Source: Rhizophagus irregularis
Taxonomy: Eukaryota > Glomeromycota > Glomeromycetes > Glomerales > Glomeraceae
Direction of reading: 5' to 3'
Assembly (NCBI RefSeq): GCF_026210795.1
Contig: NC_089455.1
Location: 930,001-994,000, forward strand
DNA length: 64,000 nucleotides
In this document: piece by piece, positions 43,358 to 59,563 of the stretch
How positions within the stretch are numbered: position 1 is the stretch's first letter
Layout: every line of letters begins with the position of its first letter
Position numbers and translations under genes: made by a program
The notes under the pieces: generated by a model
The model's database searches: none
What the model saw: only the letters and a program-made list of their open reading frames with translations
What the model was told of the DNA's origin: nothing

Positions 43358-46300
43358 GATAATATTGAAATAATAATTTTATATTTGATTTATAAATCAA
43401 AAGGAATTATTTTCGAGAATCAAAAGGCGAATTTTTGGCCTTTATAAAAAAAAAAAAAAAAAAAAGAAAAAAGATACGCGAACCCCAAATGCACATATTT
43501 GTACAAACTTGATAGGATTTTCGCACAACATGAAAAAGGCATGAATTCGGAATACGAATAAAACATATATAGCCTTATCACGTAAATTTTAAGGATGTTT
43601 TTTGCGTATCTGTTGTACAAAGTCGGCAGACCTTTGGTTGTACAATACCTTTAATGTAAAAGATGAGAATGACATAAATTATGTATTACTGTAAAAAATA
43701 ACAAGTATCTTTTAAACAAATAAATTGAATTGGAATATTTTTTTTTAAAAAAAAAATAAAATAAAAAAAGCAGAGATTTTCCTGAAAACAGCCGCAGTAT
43801 TACCGTTTATTTTTTCTTTTTACAAATTTCATTATCATCTTATTGGTTATTTGAGAAGCATCGGAAAATGTCGTATGGGAGGGGTTTTTTTAATGCAAAA
43901 AAAAATAATATTTAATAATATTCTTTGTGCTCAAATGAATCTTCCGTCGTTTCGCTATCAATTGTAAATATTAAATTTATCATGTAAACTTATTTCTGAT
44001 TATCTAATCTTATCAAATTAATCAAAAAAATCAAAGAAATTTAACGGAATTGTATAAAATCTATTAATAAAAACGGATTGATTTTAATTTTATCATTCAA
44101 GAGATAACATTATGCAATATGGAGTAAGTACGATAATGCAGTCAAACATCCTATAATTGAAATATTTCGGAAAGACAAATTATAGGTTAATCTTGAAATT
44201 TGAAAGAATACCGTACAAACGTAAACTTCATTTCCTCATATGAAAAGAAATAAAATAGAAAGAAATTGGACAGAAAGGAAGTTATTCTCTTTTCTTGGGG
44301 TATAGTTTCAATAATAAGAGATATGTTAAGGATTTTTTTTTTTTACAAAGTTTTTTAAATATACGCGTTGATTTTTACACGAAAAATGAAAGAGAGCAAA
44401 AAGTCAAATAATGAATAACCGAATTAATCGCAAATTTTCAAAATAATTATTCAATAATAAGATTTACCTTAATAGGAAAATCAATAGATTAAAAGAACAG
44501 AAGAAAGGCTTTCATGAATTGCACTGCAGTGCTTTTACTTATCACATGATATTTCACCGCAATAACTTTGCAATAGCTAAGCCAAGTTGCTAAGTTACTA
44601 AGCCTCTCTGATAATCATGTGGGCAAACCAAATTTTATTTGGATGGAATATCAAAGATTTTCATGTTATCAAGATTCTAGAGCGTTGATTCCCCATAAAA
44701 TTTATTTATTCAGTTCATTTTTGTAACACGTTACAGATTTACACACAGGACAGGTAAATCATTTTCTTAGGTAAGTATATGAAAGTTTAAGTGACAGGTT
44801 AAAAATATTTATTTTTCGGATTACAAATTGTAATTCAAATTAATAAAAATAAAGTTACTTCTTACCATAGATGTTATCATATATCATATATATCTCTAAT
44901 CATGTTATCATGTACTACCAAAAGTGAAAGTATGACTGATATGACCCTATTGTTCAAGGTAAATGTAATGGGAGGAATCTACAGTAGATTGTACAGAATT
45001 TAGTGGTTTTTAAATGACACAAAAATTAGTTTAAATGTAATTCTGATTGACATATTTGGTGTTTTGACATGAGCCAATAAAAAAAAAAACCAGAAACAAA
45101 CCGGGGAACTTCCGCAGAATAATAACTTACTGAAATTTGACATTATATCAAAAATAATAATAATTGTTCAATATTTATTATTATAGTGTGATTCATCATA
45201 ATTCATCATAATTCACAACTTCAATCATTATTACTATAATATAATAATATTTATTTATTTTGTAAATATTACTAAAAATGATTTTTTTTAAAAATTTCTC
45301 ATAATAAGCACGTTGGTAACACGAACCCTGAAAAAATAGTAGTAAATCGTGACCGATCAACCGGATTTTAACCAATAAAATTTGGTATGAATGTAATTAA
45401 GTCACAAGCCAACGTCAGGAGGACACTCTGACGCAGCAAACAATTTATAAAACCACTTTTTTTGTGATAACAATGTCATCCCACATAAAATGGCTGCCGT
45501 GTAAATTAAGAATTTGCTAAATATATAAAATAATTATTGTTGAGACGTTTCCAATCATTAAATTATAAGGAGGGAATTACAGTTTTGGCTGTTATACATG
45601 TGAACTTGTAAAAAGACAAAAAAAAAAATGCGAGTACTCCAGAATAGCATGCACTAACGTAGCATTTAAGATAAGTTTCAAAGTCTATAAAAAGTTAATG
45701 AAGTTTATCAGCCATTAATCACTATTAATCACTAATAAAATACATCATTAAATGGTATTAAACAACAATGATCATCTGAATGATGTTTAACTTATTCGGA
45801 TCACAATCAGGGCGAGGTCAGACTTGTATGCTGTACTCTTATTTTTTTGTGGAGTGATTCATTAAAAACCAAGCCTTTGTTGGGAATAAAATTTTCATAG
45901 AATTTCTTTATTTCTTTTTATCCTTTTTTATTTTTTTTAATTCTTTTTTTTTTCTTTTTTTTATTTTAATTTTTTTTTCTGTGTGAAAGGGAAAAAAAAC
46001 AAAAAAAAAAAGGAAAGGAATCATTTAAAAAACTTTCGTTATTCATTTTTGCACTTATTTTGTGTATTGTGTAATATGTTTTATATAAATTGAGCATTAT
46101 TATTGGCGTTAAAATATGTTTTTTTTTGCCAATCTTATTTTACCATAATAGTGGATAACCATTATGAATATTTTATACTATTAAATATATAAACTTGTTA
46201 TGTTTTATTGTTATTATTTTTTTTTTTTTTATATATTTTATAAATATTTTGGTTACACTCGTTTCAAAGAAATCTCATATCTTTTTTTTTTTTTTTGGAG

Positions 46301-46850
46301 ACATTGACGATCTTCATAATACATCTTTAAAAAGTGTTTTTTTATATAAAAACTTCCGAAAAGATTTTTTTTTTTAAAAAAAATTTTTATTTTTTTTGTT
46401 TCACCTAAAAAAGATTCTCATTTTCTCTTATCGGAACTTGTATCAAATAACTATAAAAAAATACACATACATTTATATATATATATATTAGATAAAATAT
46501 CGAGAAAAAAAAAAAAAAAATTAAAAATTTTTGATAAATAGTTGGTTTTTTTTAATAAATAAATAAACAAATATTAAAAAACAAAATAAAATATATATAT
46601 ATAAAAAATAATTCATAAATAATTAGATAAAACTTATAATAAATCAAAAATCAAAAAAACTCCTTTTTATAATAGATAAAAAAAATATTCCTTTATCTTT
46701 ATCTTTCTTTAAAAAAAAAAAAACAAAAAATTTTCCATTTCAAAAAGTAAACCTATTCTTTAATCATTTCAATCAGATTTATTTTTAAAAGAAATTAATA
46801 ATATATATATATATTTATATATATATATATATATTATAATATATAAAAAG
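43358..46850. other. long intergenic region upstream of the pseudokinase
   Basis: About 3.5 kb. It has poly-A/T runs, a small tandem ATTCATCATA repeat at about 45196-45218, and (AT)n tracts just before 46851. No gene was supported; short frames are low-complexity. Confidence 0.4.
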
Positions 46851-49800
46851 ATGAATTTCCCTGATCATGTATTATTTAATATAAATGTTGCCGTGGTGGC
46901 AATGATATTAAGGAAAAGATATGGTTATGAATTTGAACGAGATGATGATTCAAAATGTGAGTAAAATTAATTATTAATAATTCAATTTAAATTTATCTTC
47001 TATATCTAATCGTTCGTCTGTTTTAATAGCAATCAAGTCGAATGAAATGTGGGAAATGACTGAAACCCTTCATAATATTTTAATCGATTGTTTAGGAACT
47101 GATGATGCTATATTAGATTTCATAAATTGGTTTTTCGATGGTATACGAAAAACGTTTGAATCAGAAAATAATTTTTCTTCCCGAAATAATTCTTCCTTCT
47201 CTTTACAACATCATCATCAAATATTAGTATTTCCTGATACTTGCTTTCAATGTAAAAAACCTTATACTTCCCCTTTGCCAAATGATAAATGGTGTAATGC
47301 GTGTGAATCTCATGTATTTGAATCAAAATTTCATATTTGGACGAGTGGAAATGTGGAACTTGATGGATTTATTCGACAATCTCAATTGGAAGCAACTGAA
47401 TCTACAGATTTCCTAAGATGGGTGGATTTTTCCGCTTTTACTGACATGAATCAAATTGGTAAAGGTGGTTTTAGTGAGGTTTATGTCGGAAAATGTACAA
47501 ATGATCGTTTGGATGGGACCTTAAAACAATGGGTGACAAATATGGAATGTCAAATTATATTGAATTATGTACAATGTCGTAATGAAGATCTTAAAGAAGA
47601 TTTTGAAGACATACCTTTAGAAAAATGGGAAAATATTTTGTCAGACTTTGTCGATAAAATGAAACTTATTTACCGAGATAGAAAAGCATTAAAGTGTAAA
47701 CCACGTGATCTTTCTGATGAAAATCAGGAACATAAAGTAAGTATTAAGTCGTCTTAACTAGTAAAATTATAATTATTTTGACTATGGATACTATTACTCT
47801 TATTTATAATATTAATAGCTTATAATGTTTTATTAGGTTAAGAGAACTAATAGTTTTACAAGACTTAAGAGTCTTTTAAAAAGAAGACCAAGTAAAAAGA
47901 AGAATAAAAATGTAAGAATTATTATTTATTATTTATATTATTTATTAATGGTTATCATGAGATTCATGATTTATTCATTTTTTTTTTTTTTTAGAAATTA
48001 TTACTTAATCCCAAACTAAACGAGCCTAAGAAAAAAATCACTCAAATACCTTCAACTGTTTCTCCGTTACGGAGTAAGTTTGTTCCAAAAACAGTTGTAT
48101 TAAAACGATTATTAGATTCACAAAATTTAAGTTCAAGTTTTATCAACGAGGTAATTATCACTTTTTTTTTTAACACTCGATGGAGAATTTAATTTATACT
48201 TGAGTTCGCTCTTTAATTATTTTTTTTTTTTTTACCCTTTCTTAAATTTAGATAAAAACACATTATCTTTCGTTAAAGAAATCCTCAAAAGTACCAAGAA
48301 TGTATGGTTTTACGCAAGATCCGGTAACAAAAGATTATTACATAGTGTTACAGTATGCAAATGACTTAGACTTAAATAGATACCTGGCTCATAATTGTGC
48401 TAGCATAGATTGGTGGCAACGTATAAGTATATTAGATGGAATTGTAAAAGGAATTTATGAATTACATAAAGAAGACTTAATACATCATAATTTACACACT
48501 GGTAATATATTAGTTAGACGTACTAGAAGAAAAGAGGTCGAGAGAATAAGTTTAAGAAATCCTTCATCATCTGTGAGAATATGGATTTCTGATAGTGGTT
48601 TACAAGGTCCTGCTGGCTCATCGAATGAAAATAATGATTTAAATTCATCATCCTCTCCTATCGATGAGAATAGTAATATCATATCTAATTCACGAAAAGA
48701 AATTTATGGAGTATTGCCTTATATCGCTCCTGAAGTTTTACAAGGTAAAGAATACACAAAAAGTTCAGATATATATAGTTTAGGTATTATTATGTGGGAA
48801 TTATCAAATGGTGCTACTTTAAAAAGACAACAACGTCATAAGAGACCTTTTCATGATCAACCTTATGATAAAAATTTGGCAATGGAAATTGTAATAAACG
48901 AAAAAAGACCCAATATAGCTACATCTCCTGATATACCAGAATGTTGGTTAGATTTGATGAAAAAATGTTGGGCATCAAAACCGGAAGATCGACCTAATAT
49001 TGAAAACATCATGACAATTACTAATGCATGGAATGCAGAAAGGAGAAAGTCTTTGAATTTGGAATCGAAAAGTTCTTTGCCGTTTTCATTAATTCATACT
49101 GATCACAAAATTGATGAAAATATTGTTGGACAATTTATGGAAGCTGAGAAGAGAAGAATCGAAAGATTAAACAAAGGAAAGCAAGTGGAGAGAGATGATA
49201 AACCAATTGTTGATGAAGAAATTTCAGTTGGTGCAACTGAATCCGTTAATCAAGATGATGATGATAATCATCAGGAAGTTTCGATGAAAAGTCAATTAAT
49301 TGACTTTATAATTGAAATACCAAATGAGAATTTGAATGAAATTTATGGAGATTCAAATTCTCATCACGAAGGAATTAAAAAAGAGAAAGTTGATAGTGGA
49401 TATCAAAGAGAAGATCAAGATGATGAAAGTTTGGAGTTGCAAGAAAATATTAATCAAATAGAAGATGAAATTGAACCTGAAAAGACCATAGAAGAAGAAA
49501 AGAATTTAAATAAAAATATTGAAGGTAAAAATTTTTTTTATTGATTAATTAAAATGAAAGTAGATACTAATTTCTTTTTATTTGTATTATCAGATAAACA
49601 AATTGAACCAATTATAGTACAAGACGACAGGAAAAAACATGTTAAAATCGATGACAATCAATTAGGTAACTATTATAACTATTATAATAACTTTTTATAT
49701 TAAAATTATTAATCTATTGATAATTTAATAATTTTTTTTTATTTATTTAGTAGTTAAACAAGATAATCAAGATAGTCCAATTAAAAATGGCATAGAAGCA

Positions 49801-49931
49801 AATTCCGAAACTGGATCAAAAGGTAAATAAATCAGTCATAATGTTTTTTGTATATAACAATGAAATTTTACTTACCCGTTTTTTTATTATTTTTATTAGA
49901 AATTAATATAATTAAAGAGAAAGAACCATAA
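46851..49931 (+). CDS. TKL-type kinase-like protein with zinc ribbon, probable pseudokinase
   Basis: Eight exons (46851-46956, 47030-47736, 47837-47911, 47995-48150, 48252-49524, 49594-49665, 49751-49822, 49900-49931) sum to 831 codons. A zinc-ribbon-like CFQCKKPYTSPLPNDKWCNAC lies at about 107-127. The kinase domain begins with the glycine loop IGKGGFSEVY (about 178-187), but the VAIK-type lysine (KTVVLKRL, K333) comes only after an insertion of about 130 residues that is partly very basic (LKRRPSKKKNKN). The catalytic loop reads HHNLHTGN (426-433), so the HRD aspartate is Asn; the metal-binding motif is DSG (462-464). YIAPEVLQGKEY and DIYSLGIIMWELSNG are intact. The last 230 residues are acidic and disordered-looking. 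The fold is clear; loss of the catalytic Asp suggests a signalling scaffold. Confidence 0.88.
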
Positions 49932-50444
49932 AAAAAATTTACAATTATGACATCAATTTTTATGAATCAATTTCTTATTCCAATCATTTATTCATTTTCA
50001 TTTAATTCATTATATCTATTTTCGTGTAAATGTGTGTATATTCGATATAATGTTTTTCTTGGAGTTATTTATATCATCAATAAATACTGCGTATTTATGT
50101 ATTTATGTTAATTACGACATTACGGGTTTTTTATTTTAGTTTATAGAATTTTGTGTATTTTTATAATTAATTTTTTATAGAGGGAAGTTGTATTATTATA
50201 TAAGGATTGAAACATACATATATAAAAAAAAAATTAAAAAATCATATATATATATATTCATTTAAAATAGTATACTCATTTTTTTTTCAAAAAATAAGAT
50301 ATATAAAAATAGAAATTACTAATTTTCGCTTAGTGTTACAAAAATTTAATAAAAATAAAAAAACTATATAAAATTTGAACTATAATAGTTTCTGGGCTGG
50401 GTTTAATCAATATCTTTACTAAAAATAAATTAAACAATACAACC
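49932..50444. other. 3' flank of the pseudokinase gene
   Basis: About 510 bases of AT-rich DNA, likely 3' UTR plus the upstream region of the next ORF. No feature recognised. Confidence 0.4.
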
Positions 50445-50882
50445 ATGCTAAATGAAATTCTTAAAATACTTCAATGTCTTGCTTACCTTTCAATGACTGT
50501 TAAGAACAGTTATTCATTAGCTAATCGCGTCCAAGAAAGATTCGTTACTTCAATTACTAAAACGGAGATTCAAGAAATAATTGAAGAAGTGGAAAGGCAA
50601 ATTACAATATTAGATAAAGAAATAAAAGAAAAAGAAAGTAATTTATTAAGTAGCAATCCAGAAACAGAGGAAGAATTGTTTTTGCCTACTAGATTAAGAG
50701 AGGATTATTGTTCACCTGAAAGATTAGACGAATGGTTAAGAGGTTGGGAGTTTATTGATAATCATGACTTTTCTGATGAAGAGAAAATTCTGGTTGTTGA
50801 TAAAGAATTGGCCGTTAAAGAAAAATTACGAGATGGGTGGAGTAGACTTCGTTGTGAGCTATATGTTATGTTAAATGACTAA
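50445..50882 (+). CDS. 145-residue orphan protein
   Basis: Single-exon frame of 145 residues. It has a hydrophobic start (ILKILQCLAYLSMTV), a predicted helical or coiled-coil stretch (EIQEIIEEVERQITILDKEI), then RLREDYCSPERLDEWLRGWE and a charged end (ELAVKEKLRDGWSRLRCELY). Tryptophan is always TGG here, so it looks like ordinary nuclear coding DNA, unlike the relic that starts 18 bases further on. The family is not recognised. The composition and length are compatible with a real small gene, but expression is unproven. Confidence 0.5.
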   Translation: MLNEILKILQCLAYLSMTVKNSYSLANRVQERFVTSITKTEIQEIIEEVERQITILDKEIKEKESNLLSSNPETEEELFLPTRLREDYCSPERLDEWLRGWEFIDNHDFSDEEKILVVDKELAVKEKLRDGWSRLRCELYVMLND

Positions 50883-50899
50883 TTTTCTTTGCTCTTAAA

Positions 50900-51188
50900 A
50901 TGTCTAATACAACTAAACTCGACCTTAAACCTCTTATCTCCAATCGTAATTTCTTAATTGAAATTATACAAATTGTCGTACTGATTATGAAAAAGCGGGA
51001 GCAGTTTAGGCTTTTGAGGTTTGTTACGATTTAGCCAAAATACTATCCGTAAAGTCTTACTATTACGAGCCCAAGAAGTTCATATTACTCCCCGTTTAGC
51101 TGGACTAGAAGGATTTATTCCCAATGCTGAAATTTGATTTGCTAAAAAAAGAAATAAAACTAGCCATACTTATAATGGCGAAGTAGCC
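50900..51188 (+). pseudogene. relic of a bacterial HI0074-like nucleotidyltransferase partner
   Basis: Three frame segments in the same direction form one family pattern. After an ATG at 50900 (SNTTKLDLKPLISNRNF), the second frame, from about 50977, reads DYEKAGAV, a TAG stop, then AFEVCYDLA. The third, from 51039, reads NTIRKVLLLRAQEV...GFIPNAEI, then TGA, then FAKKRNKTSHTYNGEVA. The FE-CYDLA helix and the RNKTSHTYN signature are landmarks of the HI0074/nucleotidyltransferase substrate-binding family, found in bacteria and archaea, often beside a minimal nucleotidyltransferase. The TGA (51135-51137) stands where these proteins usually have Trp. At least two shifts and one stop make it non-functional under any code. 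No nucleotidyltransferase gene is seen next to it. Confidence 0.75.
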
Positions 51189-51525
51189 ACCGAGATTTAA
51201 AAAGTTTGAGTATTTTATTATCTAATAGTTATCAAGTTAAAATATCAGATTTTGGTTTATCAAAGAGTAAAATTATTAGTGCTTCTAATTCGACACATGA
51301 TACTACTGGAGTTTGTTTAGTCGGTATCCGGAAATGAGATTGAACTTGTTTAATTCTAAGGTAATGAGTAGCGGGGAAAGTGGAGAATGTTGACCGGGGC
51401 GAAATTCTTTTATTGGAATGCGAATGAATTAACTACTTTAATTAATAAGTGTTTGGAGAATAGTAGTAAAGATGGATTAGAGGCAAAGATTAAGAGTATT
51501 AGTGATGAGAATTTTTTTAGCCAAA
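51189..51525 (+). pseudogene. protein-kinase fragment, TGA at the conserved tryptophan
   Basis: The frame reads HRDLKSLSILLSNSYQVKI, directly followed by SDFGLSKSK, then STHDTTGVCLVGIRK and a TGA at 51335-51337, with another TGA two codons later. In kinases this position is the Trp of the G-T-x-[KR]-W-M-A-P-E motif, so TGA for Trp is the simplest reading. A later frame (about 51405-51510) has AKFFYWNANELTTLINKCLE, like the helical end of a kinase domain. The N-lobe is absent; the fragment fuses directly onto the HI0074-like relic. It is not a copy of the pseudokinase at 46851, whose matching motifs differ (HHN, DSG, GVLPYIAPE). Confidence 0.7.
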
Positions 51526-51542
51526 TAAAAGTTTTTTTCTTT

Positions 51543-51907
51543 CTATTCATGCCTTTTTAAAGCATTAAATTCCTTGACCGCCGGAATCAAGTCATCATTG
51601 CTCGCTCCAACTGGTTGAACTATTGAATCTGCTTTTTTCGCTATCTCCAAAGTTCCTTGGCTCGTGCGGGCAGGAGCGTCAACTATTATTAAATCATATT
51701 TACTAGTTAGCGGTCAAACTTCTTTAACTGAATTAAAACACTTGGCAATCAATTTTGCCTTTAATTTTACTCATTCATAACTGGTTAATTGTTGCAATCT
51801 GCTAATAATACTTTAAGTTTTTGCTTTTGAACTTCTATTGCCACTGCTCGGGACAGAGTGCTTTTTCCCACTCCTCCTTTTTGGCTAATAAATGCTATTA
51901 TGGTCAT
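51543..51907 (-). pseudogene. parA: ParA-type partition ATPase relic using TGA for Trp
   Basis: On the minus strand, from an ATG at 51907, the frame begins [20 protein letters not shown], a textbook deviant Walker A of ParA/Soj proteins, then VLLADC. A shift of a few bases follows (51790-51800), where DTQQ is expected. In the new frame come TSYE, TGA (51773-51771), VKLK, then a shortened middle, SVKEV, TGA (51716-51714), PLTSKYD, the Walker B DLIIVDAPARTSQGTLEIAK and VQPVGASNDDLIPAVKEFNA, ending at a TAG. ParA proteins of small plasmids are about 200 residues; here about 120 codons remain. Both TGA codons fall at usual Trp positions (YEW, VWP), which points to a mollicute-code donor. It is clearly distinct from the eukaryotic Nbp35 ATPase next door. 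Confidence 0.85.
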
Positions 51908-52200
51908 ACTCTACCGATAAATCTCTCAGTACAAATTAATTAACTCCTTTTAAGCAAGATGATGCTGTGCCCAAATTTTTTAAGTTTAGCTAGTATATTA
52001 GTATATTAGATCACTAAAATATGCCTCCGACTATGTTCTTTACCTTCCTTAAAGTCACGTGAAATGTTAAAGATTTTCATTTTTCGAGATTGCCGATCGA
52101 TTATAAATATTCGTTGCGCCAATTCACGTGATATTCAAAAAAATTATAAATCAAAAAGCGAGATCAGATCTATGTACTAATTGATTTCTTTTCCTAAACG
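51908..52200. other. NBP35 upstream region
   Basis: About 290 bases between the bacterial relic and the NBP35 start codon. CACGTGA occurs at 52054 and 52125, a possible E-box-type site. No gene. Confidence 0.4.
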
Positions 52201-53660
52201 ATGGCTGTAACAGATAATATACCCGAACATTGTCCAGTATGTATTTTTGAAACTTGTTATACTCTTGTGAAATATCAGAAATACTTATCTTTATGATCAT
52301 TTATTTGACAGGGACCAACCACTGAACAGGCAGGAAAAGCTTCGGCCTGTCAAGGTTGTCCAAACCAAAATGTATGTGCTACAGCTCCAAAGGGACCAGA
52401 TCCGGGTATGTTTATGTTAATTCACTCTTTTTTTTTGATTGATATTTTAAATTTTAACAAATAAATCTTTTGATAATTCATTAGACTTGTTACTTATTAA
52501 GGAAAGAATGAGCTCGGTTAAACATAAAATTCTCATATTATCAGGTAAAGGTGGAGTAGGTAAAAGTACATTCACCTCCCAACTTGGGTTTGCTTTTAGC
52601 AGTGATGAAAATATTCAGGTAAGGTATAAATACTTTTATATTTTTTAATAATTATCATGCTAAATTCCTCTTATTTCATTACAGGTTGGAGTTATGGATA
52701 TTGATGTGTGTGGTCCCTCAATTCCGAAGATTATGGGATTAGAAGGAGAGCAAATTCATCAAAGTTTATCTGGATGGTCACCAGTATATGTACAAGAAAA
52801 TTTAGGTGTAATGTCAATTGGATTTATGTTATCAAATCCCGATGATGCAGTAATTTGGCGTGGACCGAAAAAAAACGGCAAGTTCGAGTTTTTAACAATT
52901 GTGAGCCCTTAAATATGAAAGTATTTTTTTTTAATTTGTTTTGTTATTTTATATTACAGGGATAATTAAACAATTTTTAAAAGATGTTGATTGGGGGGAT
53001 ATAGATTATATGTTGGTAGACACACCACCTGGTACATCAGATGAACATTTATCAATTACTCAATATCTTAAAGAGAGTGTAATTGATGGAGCTATTATAA
53101 TTACAACACCGCAGGAGGTTGCTTTACAAGATGTTAGAAAAGAAATAGACTTTTGTAGAAAAGTAAAAATTCCTATTATTGGAGTTGTTGAAAATATGAG
53201 CGGTTTTATTTGTCCTAATTGCAAGGTAATAATAATAAATGGAGATCAATATTATTATTTTAAATTTTAAATTTTAATTGTTCTATTATATTTAGGGAGA
53301 ATCAGTAATATTTGCTCCAACAACTGGTGGTGGAAAGAAAATGGCAGAGGATGAAAAAGTTCCCTTTTTGGGATCTATTCCTTTAGATCCCAGAATAGGT
53401 ATGATATTTAATATTTATATTTATAAAAAATTTGTATCATTTTTTTTTAACCCATATTATGTTATCTATAGGTAAGGCTTGTGATACTGGTGTATCATTT
53501 TTAGATGAATATTCAGATTCTCCAGCCTGTAAAGCATTTCAAGATATTATTGCAAGTAAGAAATCTTTTTAAGTTTAATAAATAAAGAATATATTTAATA
53601 TTTGAATACATTCTAATTGAGATTTTGCTTTTTATAGAAATTAAAACACAAATCAATTAA
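52201..53660 (+). CDS. NBP35: NBP35, cytosolic Fe-S cluster assembly scaffold ATPase
   Basis: Eight exons (52201-52236, 52312-52405, 52485-52618, 52685-52877, 52960-53225, 53296-53398, 53472-53555, 53638-53660) keep frame throughout to about 310 residues. The N-terminal cysteine motif [20 protein letters not shown] plus a further Cys holds the stable 4Fe-4S cluster of Nbp35 and separates it from Cfd1. [15 protein letters not shown] is the deviant Walker [13 protein letters not shown] and [11 protein letters not shown] (the C-terminal CxxC for the bridging cluster) follow. Nbp35 works with Cfd1 in the cytosol to build Fe-S clusters for nuclear and cytosolic proteins. Intron 4 must use a GC donor (GCAAGT at 52878). 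The C-terminal exon is tiny (KIKTQIN). Confidence 0.96.
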
Positions 53661-54677
53661 TTAAATTATAAATAAGAAAATATTTGTAATATAACATGAA
53701 TCAATATTTTTATATTATTTGCTGTATTTTAAACTATTTTCATTAATTATAAAAAAAATTTAAATAAATATATTTTTTGTTTTTTTTTATTTATAGTTAA
53801 CTTTAATAAATTCAATTTTTTAATTACAACTTATATATTAAATAATATCAATGACAAAAGTTTTTTTAAAAGAATGATTAGCTAATAAAAATACAAATTT
53901 TAGTTTTACTCAGATTTATAATGATTTTTAATTTCTAATTATATAATTATATAATAATTACCATATAATAGGGTTACAGTATTCCAGATATGATACAGAT
54001 TTCAGAGGTTTTGACTTTATACGTACCCCACCATTGTGTGAGTTTTTATTATTAGTAGATATGTATAAAACTTATATAATAATTGAGTATTTATCATGCA
54101 TAATACCTAGGCATTTATTAAATTATTTTAAATAATAAAATCAGTAGAAAATGTAAGTTCTTTTTTGTAGGGTATTGTACATAGGAGGAGTACCGTGACC
54201 CACAAAATATGGTAATATAATTCCTATTAAAATATTATATAATTACTTTTTTTAACATTATTCTTAAAAAAAGCAGGTCATATTAATATAACTGGTAAAT
54301 CAGAAATATGACAAATTAAACTTCTACTTGTATAGATAATTACTTTTTTCAATTTATATTATACATTTTATACTACTATTTAATACAAATTATAATACTC
54401 TTTTATATATAGTATTCTTCTAAAAAATCTCTAATTTTTATCTAAATAATTTATTTATAATAAAAAATTTTATATACATTCAAATACAGTATTTTTTTTT
54501 TATTTATTTATTTATTATAGATATAGTTCTATTACCTTTAAATACAGTATTAAAGTACTATAATCTACATTATAGTATTTTAATTATAATAATTATTATC
54601 AATATTATCTATATTTTTTTTAATTACTAATAAATATATTTTAAAATTTATTTATACTTTATAATTCTAAAAAAATG
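53661..54677. other. AT-rich gene desert, first part
   Basis: Extremely AT-rich. A palindrome AGTACTATAAT/ATTATAGTATT occurs at about 54555-54580. No ORF or RNA gene was supported. Confidence 0.45.
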
Positions 54678-54849
54678 CAGTTAACCCTTATTATAATGAA
54701 CTCTAGGGTCCAGACTTCAACTTCGCTATAAGACTATAGTAAAGATTTTAAGAGATTTGATTAATTAATTCATTATAACGAGGGGAAATTTATTATAGTT
54801 ATCTGAAAAATTTACTATATTAAGAATTCACTATATCAAGGTTTAATTG
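54678..54849. mobile_element. small pogo-like MITE (decayed)
   Basis: 172 bp with imperfect inverted ends. The left is CAGTTAACCCTTATTATAAT; the right, read in reverse, is CAATTAAACCTTGATATAGT, about three quarters identical over 27 bases. The right flank is TA; the left flank TG may be a mutated TA. The ends resemble the CA[GA]T[TC]AAACCT start of pogo/Tc1 elements but are not the same family as the element at 29802. Confidence 0.5.
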
Positions 54850-55850
54850 TAAAAACTTTTTTTGTTTTAAATTATTATAATGCAATTTTTTTACAATTAC
54901 TGTAATTTTATTTAAATATTAATACCTACTCCCTTTAAGGGTAAATTTAAAAAAAAAATATTATTATAATTCATTAGTAAACTTTGATTAGTAAACTGCA
55001 TATAATATTATTAATATCAAAAATAAAAGTATAAAATTATATAAATAGAATTTTACTTTACTTATAATAGAAGTTACTATAGAAAGTTAATATTTCAGTG
55101 TTAATGGTTTTGGATGCTGGTGTAGTTAGTTATTTTTTAGAAGTTTTGTGATAATAAATACTAATAGAACTAGTTTTTAAAATAAACATAGTTTTTTTCT
55201 TTTTTTTCATATTAAAAGTAAGCTGCTAGAATTACTATTCAAGTTCTATTTAATTATTTTAGCATAAGAAATTTGCTTATTCTTTCCTTTAAGAATAAAA
55301 GAAGTGACATCTGCTTTGAGAGTTACAAGTAACACTTTAATTTGTATTACTTCTTTCTTAATTTATACTACATTCATATTAATTAGTGATTGGTACTTAG
55401 TATAAGCAAAAATTTTCATATTTATTAAAGTGTTTTCTGTAAAATTAAATACATAATTAGTATATTGTGATAATGTCAACAACATAAACTATATATGACA
55501 ATTAAAGTGGATTAAAGTTTCTTTTCAAATTTTGTTAACTTTCTAATTAAGTAAGAGCTAAAAATGTTAAAAATATATAAAAATATAATAAAGAGAAAAT
55601 GAAAAAGTTTATTAAGGTCTTTTACTCTAAAAGTTCTGAAAACATTTTAGAACTTTAAAAAAAAGCTTTATAAAAAATCAAGTTTTTTTTACTGATAAGT
55701 TTAATGATATCTACTATATACTATGCTTCACTTATGTTGTTAGCATTGTATTTATTTAGACTAACCTTTAAAAATTTAAAAAAAGAACTATCTTTAATAT
55801 TATTAATAAATTATTTGACTTTTAAATAATCAACTACAAGTCATTTGTAA
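54850..55850. other. AT-rich gene desert, second part
   Basis: About 1 kb with no supported ORF, repeat or RNA gene. Confidence 0.4.
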
Positions 55851-56276
55851 TTAGGAATGGGGTCAGTTTGATTACGTAATTTTGAGTGGATCTTTAGAAC
55901 TGATCAAAATCTCATGGGTTTTAAATTTATATGAGTCAAAAATCTTATTGGGAATAGAGAAACACTAATATTTTTACAATAAATAAAAAAAAGAAAATTT
56001 ATAAGTTAAAACAATTTTTAATAGCTTTTAAAATTGAACCGAATCAGTTCTAAACTGGTTCTAAAAACCAGTTCAAAATATGATCAATATCAAAATTATG
56101 ATGATCATGAATCAACTATTGATTGTTAACCAATCAAAATTTTTTTAATTCATAATCAATATATGTTCGACTTGTGTCTTTAATTTGACACATATAGCTC
56201 ATATTTTTCTTAATGGGAACTGATGTGAAACTGACGGCGAACCGAAATGAAACTAAACGAACCATTTCCATCCCTA
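55851..56276. mobile_element. hAT-type MITE with 8-bp target duplication
   Basis: 426 bp. The left end is TAGGAATGGGGTCAGTTTGA; the right end, read in reverse, is TAGGGATGGAAATGGTTCGT. The sequence TTTGTAAT lies immediately outside both ends (55843-55850 and 56277-56284), an exact 8-bp duplication, the length made by hAT transposases. The inside has CCGAATCAG and GAACCGAAAT motifs and no ORF, so it is non-autonomous. Confidence 0.8.
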
Positions 56277-56284
56277 TTTGTAAT

Positions 56285-57437
56285 TACTAAAAGCCATTTT
56301 TTATTAAAAAAATTTCTTGATAATTTCCAATTATTATTATTTTATTTTCATTTTATTAATTACTTTATAATATAAAATTTAATATTTCATTATTTTTATT
56401 TAACTAAAATATTCATTATATTTCTTTTCATTTCCTATTAGCTTTAATATATTACTATTAATTAAACTTTTATTTCTAAAATATAATAAATTATGTTTAA
56501 TAATAAATAATATCACTAATAAAAATATTTATTCATTTTTTTAATCAAATATTATAATTTATTTTTTATAGTTAGTGATTTCATTAAGAATTTTTATAAT
56601 TAAATATTGCCAAATTTATATAAAAAATATAATATTATTTATAAATATCATTAATTTTAAGCAAATGTAATTTTTAATGGCTATAATTAAAATAGCATGT
56701 AGTTAAGAAATAATATTATTACCTATTTATATATTGTTCAAAGTCTTAATTAATTTTATTATATTGAAATAAAATTGAAATAATCATAAATGTAATTTTT
56801 TCTATAAAATAATAATAGTGTAATAATTTTATATATTCTATTAACACTAAAAGTTTACACTATTTATTACTAATATCTCCTTTATAATCAACATAATTAT
56901 GAACTAAAATAAAGATTAAACAAATAAATATAAAATAATATAAAATAAAAAAAAATTTACAAAAAAAAAATGTAATTGATATTATAATATTAAAAAAAAA
57001 CTTTTAATTTATCATATGTTTAAGATTTAAATACTTTTATATTATAGTAAAAATCTATATAAAAGATAGTAAAAATCTATATAAAAGAACTATTACATCT
57101 TTCTAAACTTGCACTTCAGTTTTTGGTATTCTTCTATCATAAATAGGATAAGTGCTGGAAAAAAAAATTAAATTAAAATTTTTTCAAAAAAAAGTTTATA
57201 AGTAAAATAAATGTAAATCTAATTATTTAATTCAGATTATTTGTTATTTTAAAAAAAATTTTTGTTAATTTAATTCTGTCCTTTTTCTAGCATTTATTTT
57301 AAATTAACTGTAAAAGAATTTTTTACTTTAAAATAATTTATTAGAGATATTAAAACTTAAAATAAATAAAATATTTATATTAAAAAGCTTAAAAAATAAA
57401 AAAAAAATATTTGTTAAAAAAATGGTTAAATGCATAA
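56285..57437. other. AT-rich gene desert, third part
   Basis: About 1.15 kb. A perfect tandem duplication of a 22-base unit (TAGTAAAAATCTATATAAAA plus GA) lies at about 57045-57088. No gene. Confidence 0.45.
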
Positions 57438-57592
57438 GGGCAGTGACATTTATTACGTAATATTTTAGGGGGTGGGAGGGTATTTAAAGGTCATGTAACA
57501 TATAAGTGTAACGTAAGATTTTTCATATTACATGGGGGTGGGGGAGTATGGGCTTATAGTAAAGGGATATTACGTAATAAATGTCACTGCCC
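57438..57592. mobile_element. PIF/Harbinger-like MITE
   Basis: 155 bp with long, perfect inverted ends: GGGCAGTGACATTTATTACG continues into TAAT on the left and its exact inverse closes the right. TAA occurs directly outside both ends (57435-57437 and 57593-57595), matching the 3-bp TWA duplication of PIF/Harbinger elements. Internally a GGGGGTGGGAGGG tract near the left and GGGGGTGGGGGAG near the right are notable in such AT-rich DNA. The near-perfect ends suggest a recent insertion. Confidence 0.82.
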
Positions 57593-57595
57593 TAA

Positions 57596-59563
57596 CTAGA
57601 AAGAGTTTTTATTTGTAAGAGTCATGAATCTAGTATTTCACATGAATTGATTCATAAATAACTTTTGATTTAGCAGTCTGATTTCAATGATTTTTTTTTA
57701 TTTTAATCAGAGCAATAAGAGCTATCAATTAAAAAACAATTATTAAAATCAAATCACTAGATTTGAAATAATATTTTTTGGAATTCAAATCAAATTTAAA
57801 TCAAATTCAAATCAAATTAAATTTCAGAGGAAAAATTTGATTTATGCAGAATACTAAACTCATGACATATATTAGTTGATATTTTAGAAGGTGGAAAGTT
57901 AAGTAAAATTTTATATGATATAAAATTAAACATTTTTTATTTTACTTAAATATTTAAAAGTTGCCTATAATTATTAATGATTAAATTATAATAATCTTTG
58001 CACCATTCAATTCATTTTATTGAGAAAATTCAAATAATATACTGTATTTTATAGATTATAGTATATGGAGGACTGTATTTAAAATTATATAATATAATGT
58101 AATTTTAGCTAATTTTGATTTTAATTTTAATTAAACCTTTAAAACCAAAATATTTTGACTTTTGGCTTTTAATTTTAACTTTATATATAAATTTAAACTA
58201 TTATTTGAATTAAAACTAAATTGATTCTACAATTTAAGTTGATTTAATTTATACTTAACAATATTATTTAAAATACTATTATTAGTATTAATTTAATAGT
58301 TAATAAATTATATAAAAAGAAAAATAAATGAGTTTTAGAAAAAAAACAGCAATTTTATAAAACAAAAGTAGCTAATATAAAAAATAGAATTTTTTTATAA
58401 AAAAAGTTCTTTTTATTTTATACTAAAGAATTATTATTATTCTGAAAAGAAGGTTATATTATTTGTTTTTCTTACTCAAAGTAAAAATACAGGAGATACC
58501 AAATAAAATGAATTCAAATAAAAATTATATATTCTCTTATAACACTATAGCAAGTTCTAATTTTTTTTTTGTGAAAACTTCAACTATTATATAAAAATAG
58601 ATATTTTATTAAACACCAAACACCAATTAAAAAAAATTAGAAGAGAATAATAAATTAAAACTTTACTAAATTTATGCTTTTGATAATTACAGTATTTTAT
58701 ATATATTATAATAATTAAAATCTTATAATTAAAAAACTTGGTTGATTTAAAATAATGTAAACTTATTCGTCATATAAAATACCATTTTCATATTAATTTA
58801 TAATTACATTTTTACTCAATTTTCTAAAAAAACATAATAGCACTACAATATTTACAAAGTGGAATTAATACCCTTATCTTCCTGTCTTCCTTTAAACCAA
58901 AACTGAAAATATAAAAAAGCGTAGAAAAGTTATAAAAACCATCCATAATTCTAACGTAAAGTAGTTTAAAAGATGAAGCGCATGTGTGATAGTCGCAAAC
59001 CCCCACTTTTAGAAATACCTATTAAATCTTCGAGTTTCACTTTTTCTTTTTCTCCCGGCAAATCAACGAGATGTTTATTAATTAATAATTTTACATTGCT
59101 ATCTGATACAATAAACAAATGTTCTAACTACTTCTAACTACAACTCTAACTACATTATATCGTGATTTGTCCATTAACTATCAAAATATCAATAAATGAA
59201 AATAGAAAAATACTGTATATTACAAATATCAATTGTTAGTGCGATCCACCAACTTTTATTTTTTTAAGAACTACTATATTATTAAGGCAAATGTGCCTAC
59301 TAAAAAGTGTATATATATATAAAAATCGCTAGTCATATATATTCAAATCTACTATTTACTGTATGGAAAGGGATGAACGAAATTAAAGAAATAGAGAATA
59401 AAGAGAAATTGTATGAAGGAGGATGAAAAGTTAAACAAACACGCGTTAAAAAAAAAAGTAAAGTTACAACAAAAAAAAAATAACACGTTTCGTTTAAATG
59501 TCTAAAGAAAATATTACAAATTAAGAAATTTTAATTATTAAAAATTTTTAAAGTTTATAAAAT
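57596..59563. other. AT-rich gene desert, last part
   Basis: About 2 kb. A degenerate AATCAAATT-type run at about 57785-57820 is a small tandem repeat. No gene was supported; the final 300 bases are the 3' flank of the following minus-strand gene. Confidence 0.4.

Follow-up and report, generated by a model that had tools for sequence, protein, structure and literature searches.

A nuclear chromosome of Rhizophagus irregularis probably harbors a dead fragment of a bacterial replicon in which UGA encoded tryptophan, and the most likely donor of this fragment is a Mollicutes-related endobacterium (Moeniiplasma). That the donor was a bacterium using UGA as a tryptophan codon is well supported. 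The relic covers about 1 kb of the 3.46 Mb contig C27 (positions 50900-51907 of the window, the window being the whole stretch of 64,000 nucleotides that was analyzed, C27:930001-994000). It would be a nuclear insertion of endosymbiont DNA which is unusual in the genetic code of its donor. The initial annotation had described it as endobacterial DNA that entered the nucleus and decayed. The bacterial character of the relic, the UGA=Trp donor, the embedding in fungal DNA and the decay were all borne out, and a further locus of this type was detected, whereas the part of the claim naming Moeniiplasma met with weak matches among 320 Mycoplasmatales genomes.

Genomic setting of the relic

The features of the relic and of its two flanks, given in window positions, are as follows.

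50445..50882, + strand: left flank, intact orphan ORF of 145 aa (3 TGG, 0 TGA)
50900..51197, + strand: decayed HI0074-family gene (nucleotidyltransferase substrate-binding, HEPN type; PF08780 and solved HEPN chains)
51135..51137, + strand: TGA at an invariant HI0074 tryptophan (EIW; W in five of five relatives)
51182..51200, + strand: HI0074/kinase junction, a reading VATEI-stop overlapping the HRDLK reading in a different frame
51185..51334, + strand: protein kinase fragment from catalytic loop to DFG (HRDLK...DFGLSK; Pkinase 8.9e-7)
51335..51337, + strand: TGA in the kinase region, unsure, near the W expected in a kW.aPE motif
51375..51503, + strand: possible kinase C-lobe (MLTG..FYWN..ELTTLINKCLE), recognized by eye, with TGG twice
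51546..51907, - strand: decayed plasmid-type ParA partition ATPase (AAA_31, NF041546; ATG at 51905-51907)
51714..51716, - strand: TGA in the ParA frame at an unconserved column (not W in five of five relatives)
51771..51773, - strand: TGA at an invariant ParA tryptophan (TSYEW; W in five of five relatives)
52201..53480, + strand: right flank, fungal NBP35/NUBP-type gene (PF10609, 1.3e-40 on exon 52935-53267)

Host DNA is continuous on both sides of the relic, with a kinase gene (48252-49541) on the left and the NBP35-type gene on the right. The initial annotation had placed the relic next to a fungal NBP35 gene, and the PF10609 match on the right-flank exon agrees with this. The NBP35-type gene has apparent introns, its ATG (52201-52203) was placed by eye and it possibly extends past 53480. 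Two TCACGTGA-type palindromes, perhaps promoter elements, are located upstream of this gene at 52055-52131.

The orphan ORF on the left stops 17 bases short of the ATG at 50900, a spacing that resembles a bacterial operon. A search of the genome with this ORF returned the ORF alone, and searches of plasmids and phages gave no matches. The G+C content of the relic stretches was 30-37%. When the relic DNA was compared with plasmids at the nucleotide level, four short matches were obtained (E about 0.3). No matches were found in an Rfam search of 44000-58000, and no tRNA was found in the window.

The ParA and HI0074 remnants

The ParA remnant displays an unbroken P-loop (KGGVGKST) and a single frame break near 51790-51800. 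Its N-terminal piece (51788-51910) matched AAA_31 (2.9e-9) and the NCBIfam family ParA_partition (NF041546, 1.2e-9), and the body (51546-51812) matched the same ParA_partition family (2.3e-5). The scores of the two broken pieces against NF041546 were 38.1 and 24.1 bits where the cut-off is 180, with the P-loop and QP.GAS motifs there. Read through the frame break, the protein showed 54.5% identity to plasmid ParA of Providencia and 51-52% to that of Xanthomonas among the matches listed, i.e., among 40 of 3829 matching plasmid records, the best of these 40 being the one at 54.5%; one plasmid match outside the 40 listed fell in the 60-80% identity band. Searches of the fungus's own genome covered 146,748,485 bases in 32 contigs. 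There, the C-terminal body of ParA matched itself alone, and AAA_31 matched the ParA relic and two other sequences without stops.

The HI0074 remnant begins with the ATG at 50900, a start assigned by eye, and is decayed by an in-frame TAG (51007-51009) and at least two frame breaks, at one of which the conserved tryptophan of the LAW motif is gone. The stretch 50958-51197 matched PF08780 at 7.6e-5 (23.2 bits, under the cut-off of 31.8 bits) and TIGR01987 at 0.012, while the pieces 50846-51031 and 51010-51096 (the middle piece), each searched alone, matched no Pfam family. The joined reading matched solved HEPN chains (4.7e-7, over residues 2-73 of 73) and was 42.5% identical to a plasmid copy from Bandiella (Rickettsiales). 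In an alignment with five relatives, the helix motif RN..SHTY was found in the relic, and the invariant tryptophan there is encoded by TGA. No nucleotidyltransferase partner for HI0074 was matched among the pieces searched.

A fungal pseudogene or a chance similarity might be considered for the relic, as its kinase piece resembles kinases of the fungus itself. This explanation is extremely unlikely, given that the P-loop and body of ParA match a bacterial partition family (1.2e-9 and 2.3e-5) and that HI0074 matches solved HEPN chains.

The kinase fragment and its junction with HI0074

The piece 51176-51361 matched Pkinase (1.2e-6). Both HI0074 and the kinase are truncated at the junction 51182-51200, where the same bases are read in two frames, and this junction is likely a product of end joining or rearrangement. 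The tryptophan of the kW.aPE motif of tyrosine-kinase-like kinases would be expected near 51335. The PF07714 match of the joined kinase query stops two residues before this position, and the possible kinase tail at 51375-51503 had no Pfam match. The kinase fragment is not clearly a gene that used TGA.

The kinase piece had 35 other matches in its own genome (E up to 1). The best-scoring match was 54% identical over 26 aa, and the highest identity among the 35 was 62%. These matches do not separate a fungal from an endobacterial origin. We infer that the kinase fragment arrived together with the bacterial DNA.

A second relic on C12

A search of the whole genome with PF08780 (E 0.001) gave one match, C12:4005841-4006092, with four TGA and one TAA inside. 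The C27 relic of HI0074 was missed by this search at the same threshold. Because family searches overlook decayed pieces, the count of two relics is a lower bound. Two features were recorded on C12.

C12:4005047-4005748, upstream of the C12 HI0074 relic: intact uridine kinase-family ORF of bacterial type, 234 aa (1.2e-27)
C12:4005832-4006095: second decayed HI0074 copy (PF08780)

The C12 copy of HI0074 differs from that on C27. It has two tryptophans at columns that are W in five of five relatives, both encoded by TGA, and one of these two codons abuts a frame break. Farther out, the locus is bordered by a fungal protein kinase gene and, at its opposite end, by a cytochrome P450.

The family match of the uridine kinase (1.2e-27) is below the cut-off of the model. 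The sole tryptophan of this ORF is encoded by TGG and no TGA occurs in it. No other match was found in the genome at E 0.01 and no relative in viral_contigs. At E 0.001 the ORF matched 131 of the 320 Mycoplasmatales genomes, and the identities listed were 24-37%. In a tree of 20 mollicute loci, six plasmid copies and the C12 sequence, the latter had a terminal branch length of 2 and was not placed firmly. It is possible, as a tentative reading, that the fungus took up endobacterial DNA more than once, leaving dead UGA=Trp fragments on C27 and C12, and that the C12 uridine kinase perhaps escaped the code barrier and kept working, as a case of endosymbiotic gene transfer across genetic codes.

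Integrases of the tyrosine recombinase family (PF00589) had eight matches in the same genome (C27:1862177-1862767 and seven others). None of these contained TGA, and two of the eight held TAA or TAG stops.

TGA at conserved tryptophans

The four TGA codons pointed out in the initial annotation (51135-51137 and 51335-51337 on the + strand, 51771-51773 and 51714-51716 on the - strand) are in frame, as it stated. Its statement that TGA occurs at tryptophans in all three genes applies to 51135 and to 51771-51773, where W is present in five of five relatives; it does not apply to 51714-51716, where the column is not W in five of five, and it is unsure for 51335, just before which the kinase homology ends. 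For ParA and for HI0074, conserved columns were judged from an alignment with five relatives.

Over C27 and C12 together, all four conserved tryptophans are encoded by TGA and none by TGG; one of these codons adjoins a frame break. The 277 codons of homologous frame at both loci contained six TGA, one TAG, no TAA and no TGG. For control, the stops in three broken matches to other families in this genome were two TAG and four TAA, with no TGA (Fisher p 0.004, a rough value).

The codons were also evaluated under an HKY model of decay in which divergence was a free parameter. The input was the four conserved tryptophans (three in the reduced run), assumed to be independent sites; the kinase, the uridine kinase (whose single tryptophan codon is TGG) and the two TGA at unconserved columns were left out. 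An ancestor using UGA for tryptophan was favored over decayed TGG by a factor of 2.6e4 (kappa 10) to 7e5 (kappa 2). Without the C12 codon beside the frame break, the likelihood ratio was 2.8e3-3.8e4, and with the C27 locus alone it was 175-945. Points against the UGA=Trp donor are the uridine kinase on C12, which contains a single TGG and lacks TGA, and the two TGG codons of the possible kinase tail.

Alternatively, the donor may have used the standard code, e.g., as a member of the Rickettsiales or another proteobacterial endosymbiont, and TGG would have changed to TGA after insertion. The closest relatives found are indeed from standard-code proteobacteria (plasmid ParA of Providencia and Xanthomonas among the matches listed, and HI0074 of Bandiella), and both families were weakly matched in the 320 Mycoplasmatales genomes. 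However, such a donor requires that four of four conserved tryptophan codons became TGA, with none remaining TGG or becoming TAG, yet TAG or TAA occurred only once in the 277 codons. At the divergence that fits best, four such changes have a probability of 9e-6 to 1.3e-4. RIP is a CpA-directed decay, and decay of this kind would yield TAG, not TGA. We therefore regard a standard-code donor as unlikely.

Integration versus contamination

According to the initial annotation, the frameshifts and the TAG stop exclude live contaminant genes. This argument is weak: the endobacteria are themselves enriched in pseudogenes, according to the available text of PMC11423566, so decay alone does not exclude contamination. 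A better argument against contamination is the embedding of the relics in chromosome-scale contigs at two loci. An assembly chimera or endobacterial contamination has in its favor that endobacterial contigs are known in fungal assemblies and that such bacteria hold pseudogenes (same text of PMC11423566). Against it speak the short insert between fungal genes in a 3.46 Mb contig and the recurrence on C12. In addition, the parts of PMC10234402 consulted report a uniform Nanopore coverage of 77-85x for the assembly of R. irregularis DAOM197198 (146,773,001 bases, 32 chromosomes), which has nearly the same size and the same chromosome number as the genome analyzed here. Taken with these points, a chimera or contamination is very unlikely, and insertion into the chromosome is preferred.

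Identity of the donor

Moeniiplasma is a likely candidate for the donor. Mollicutes-related endobacteria are described in the available part of PMC10507103 as inhabitants of R. irregularis, annotated with translation table 4 and carrying kinases derived from fungi, and for recovered endobacterial genomes a G+C content of 29-33% and an enrichment in pseudogenes are reported (PMC11423566, in part).

In the comparison with mollicute sequences suggested by the initial annotation, ParA was weakly matched in seven of the 320 Mycoplasmatales genomes, by its N-terminal part (query residues 1-59 at most), and HI0074 was matched below the cut-off in two of the 320. A pattern modeled on endobacterial 16S primers found seven records of Mycoplasmataceae or Ureaplasma, none of them titled Moeniiplasma, and ParA had no match in these seven genomes at E 0.01. 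A TGA-specific ParA pattern gave no match in genome_contigs or viral_contigs, and a single ParA query found no relative in viral_contigs. With a ParA alignment, 80 loci were detected in viral_contigs; at the tryptophan nine had TGG, one had GGC and 70 had no motif readable by the motif script.

The Mollicutes-related endobacteria may have gained ParA and HI0074 from others, or another code-4 bacterium may have been the donor. In favor of another UGA=Trp bacterium, both ParA and HI0074 are atypical of the Mycoplasmatales searched. On the other hand, the bacteria with genetic code 4 that have been described from these fungi are the Mollicutes-related endobacteria (PMC11423566 and PMC10507103, in the parts available), and their genomes contain foreign genes (PMC10507103, in the same part). 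A UGA=Trp donor other than Moeniiplasma is therefore improbable.

Proposed origin and relation to known systems

With a Mollicutes-related endobacterium as donor, we infer its identity and its route of entry as follows. Lysed endobacteria would release DNA into the cytoplasm that they share within the hypha, and this DNA may be caught at a nuclear double-strand break via end joining. Perhaps two pieces were captured and joined within HI0074 and the kinase, or the rearrangement may be older and have occurred in the donor. Because the fungus reads UGA as a stop, the genes would have been dead on arrival and would then have decayed; alternatively, they may already have been pseudogenes in the donor.

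DNA of Wolbachia is inserted in the chromosomes of its insect hosts. Like the present relic, those insertions are decayed bacterial DNA within a host chromosome, with host genes on either side. They differ in that here the host is a fungus, the donor used UGA for tryptophan, the fragments are very short and they were recognized without comparison with a donor genome.

The partners in the transfers between Mollicutes-related endobacteria and their fungi (PMC10507103) are identical to those considered here, and kinases are shared by fungus and endobacterium. However, the transfers described in the available part of that source run from fungus to bacterium, while here dead DNA would have gone from bacterium to fungus. 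R. irregularis acquired genes from its endosymbiotic bacterium according to PMC11291939, which cites Li et al. (2018) for this; the same source traces receptor genes of Mortierellomycota to Mycoavidus endosymbionts (both statements from the accessible portion). As far as the available text of Li et al. (2018; PMC5982333) goes, the donors were not known endobacteria of these fungi. These two sources (in the same parts) resemble the present case in that genes of bacterial origin are described from fungi, R. irregularis among them; theirs are genes, many of them expressed, whereas ours are pseudogenes with TGA at tryptophan. In Gigaspora margarita, a test of whether a polyketide synthase domain came directly from the endobacterium did not confirm such a transfer, according to the part of PMC7732545 consulted. 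No description of dead endobacterial DNA in the nuclei of these fungi was found in the titles and abstract openings searched, which does not establish its absence from print.

A relic with UGA=Trp codons carries a label of its donor that outlasts decay. Genomes could be screened for such insertions, which would then serve as a fossil record of earlier infections. The relic also raises the question of how the barrier set by the genetic code restricts the passage of genes from an endosymbiont into its host. The families of the relic are like those of HEPN/MNT (HI0074/HI0073) toxin-antitoxin pairs and of plasmid ParA ATPases, but here both genes are broken.
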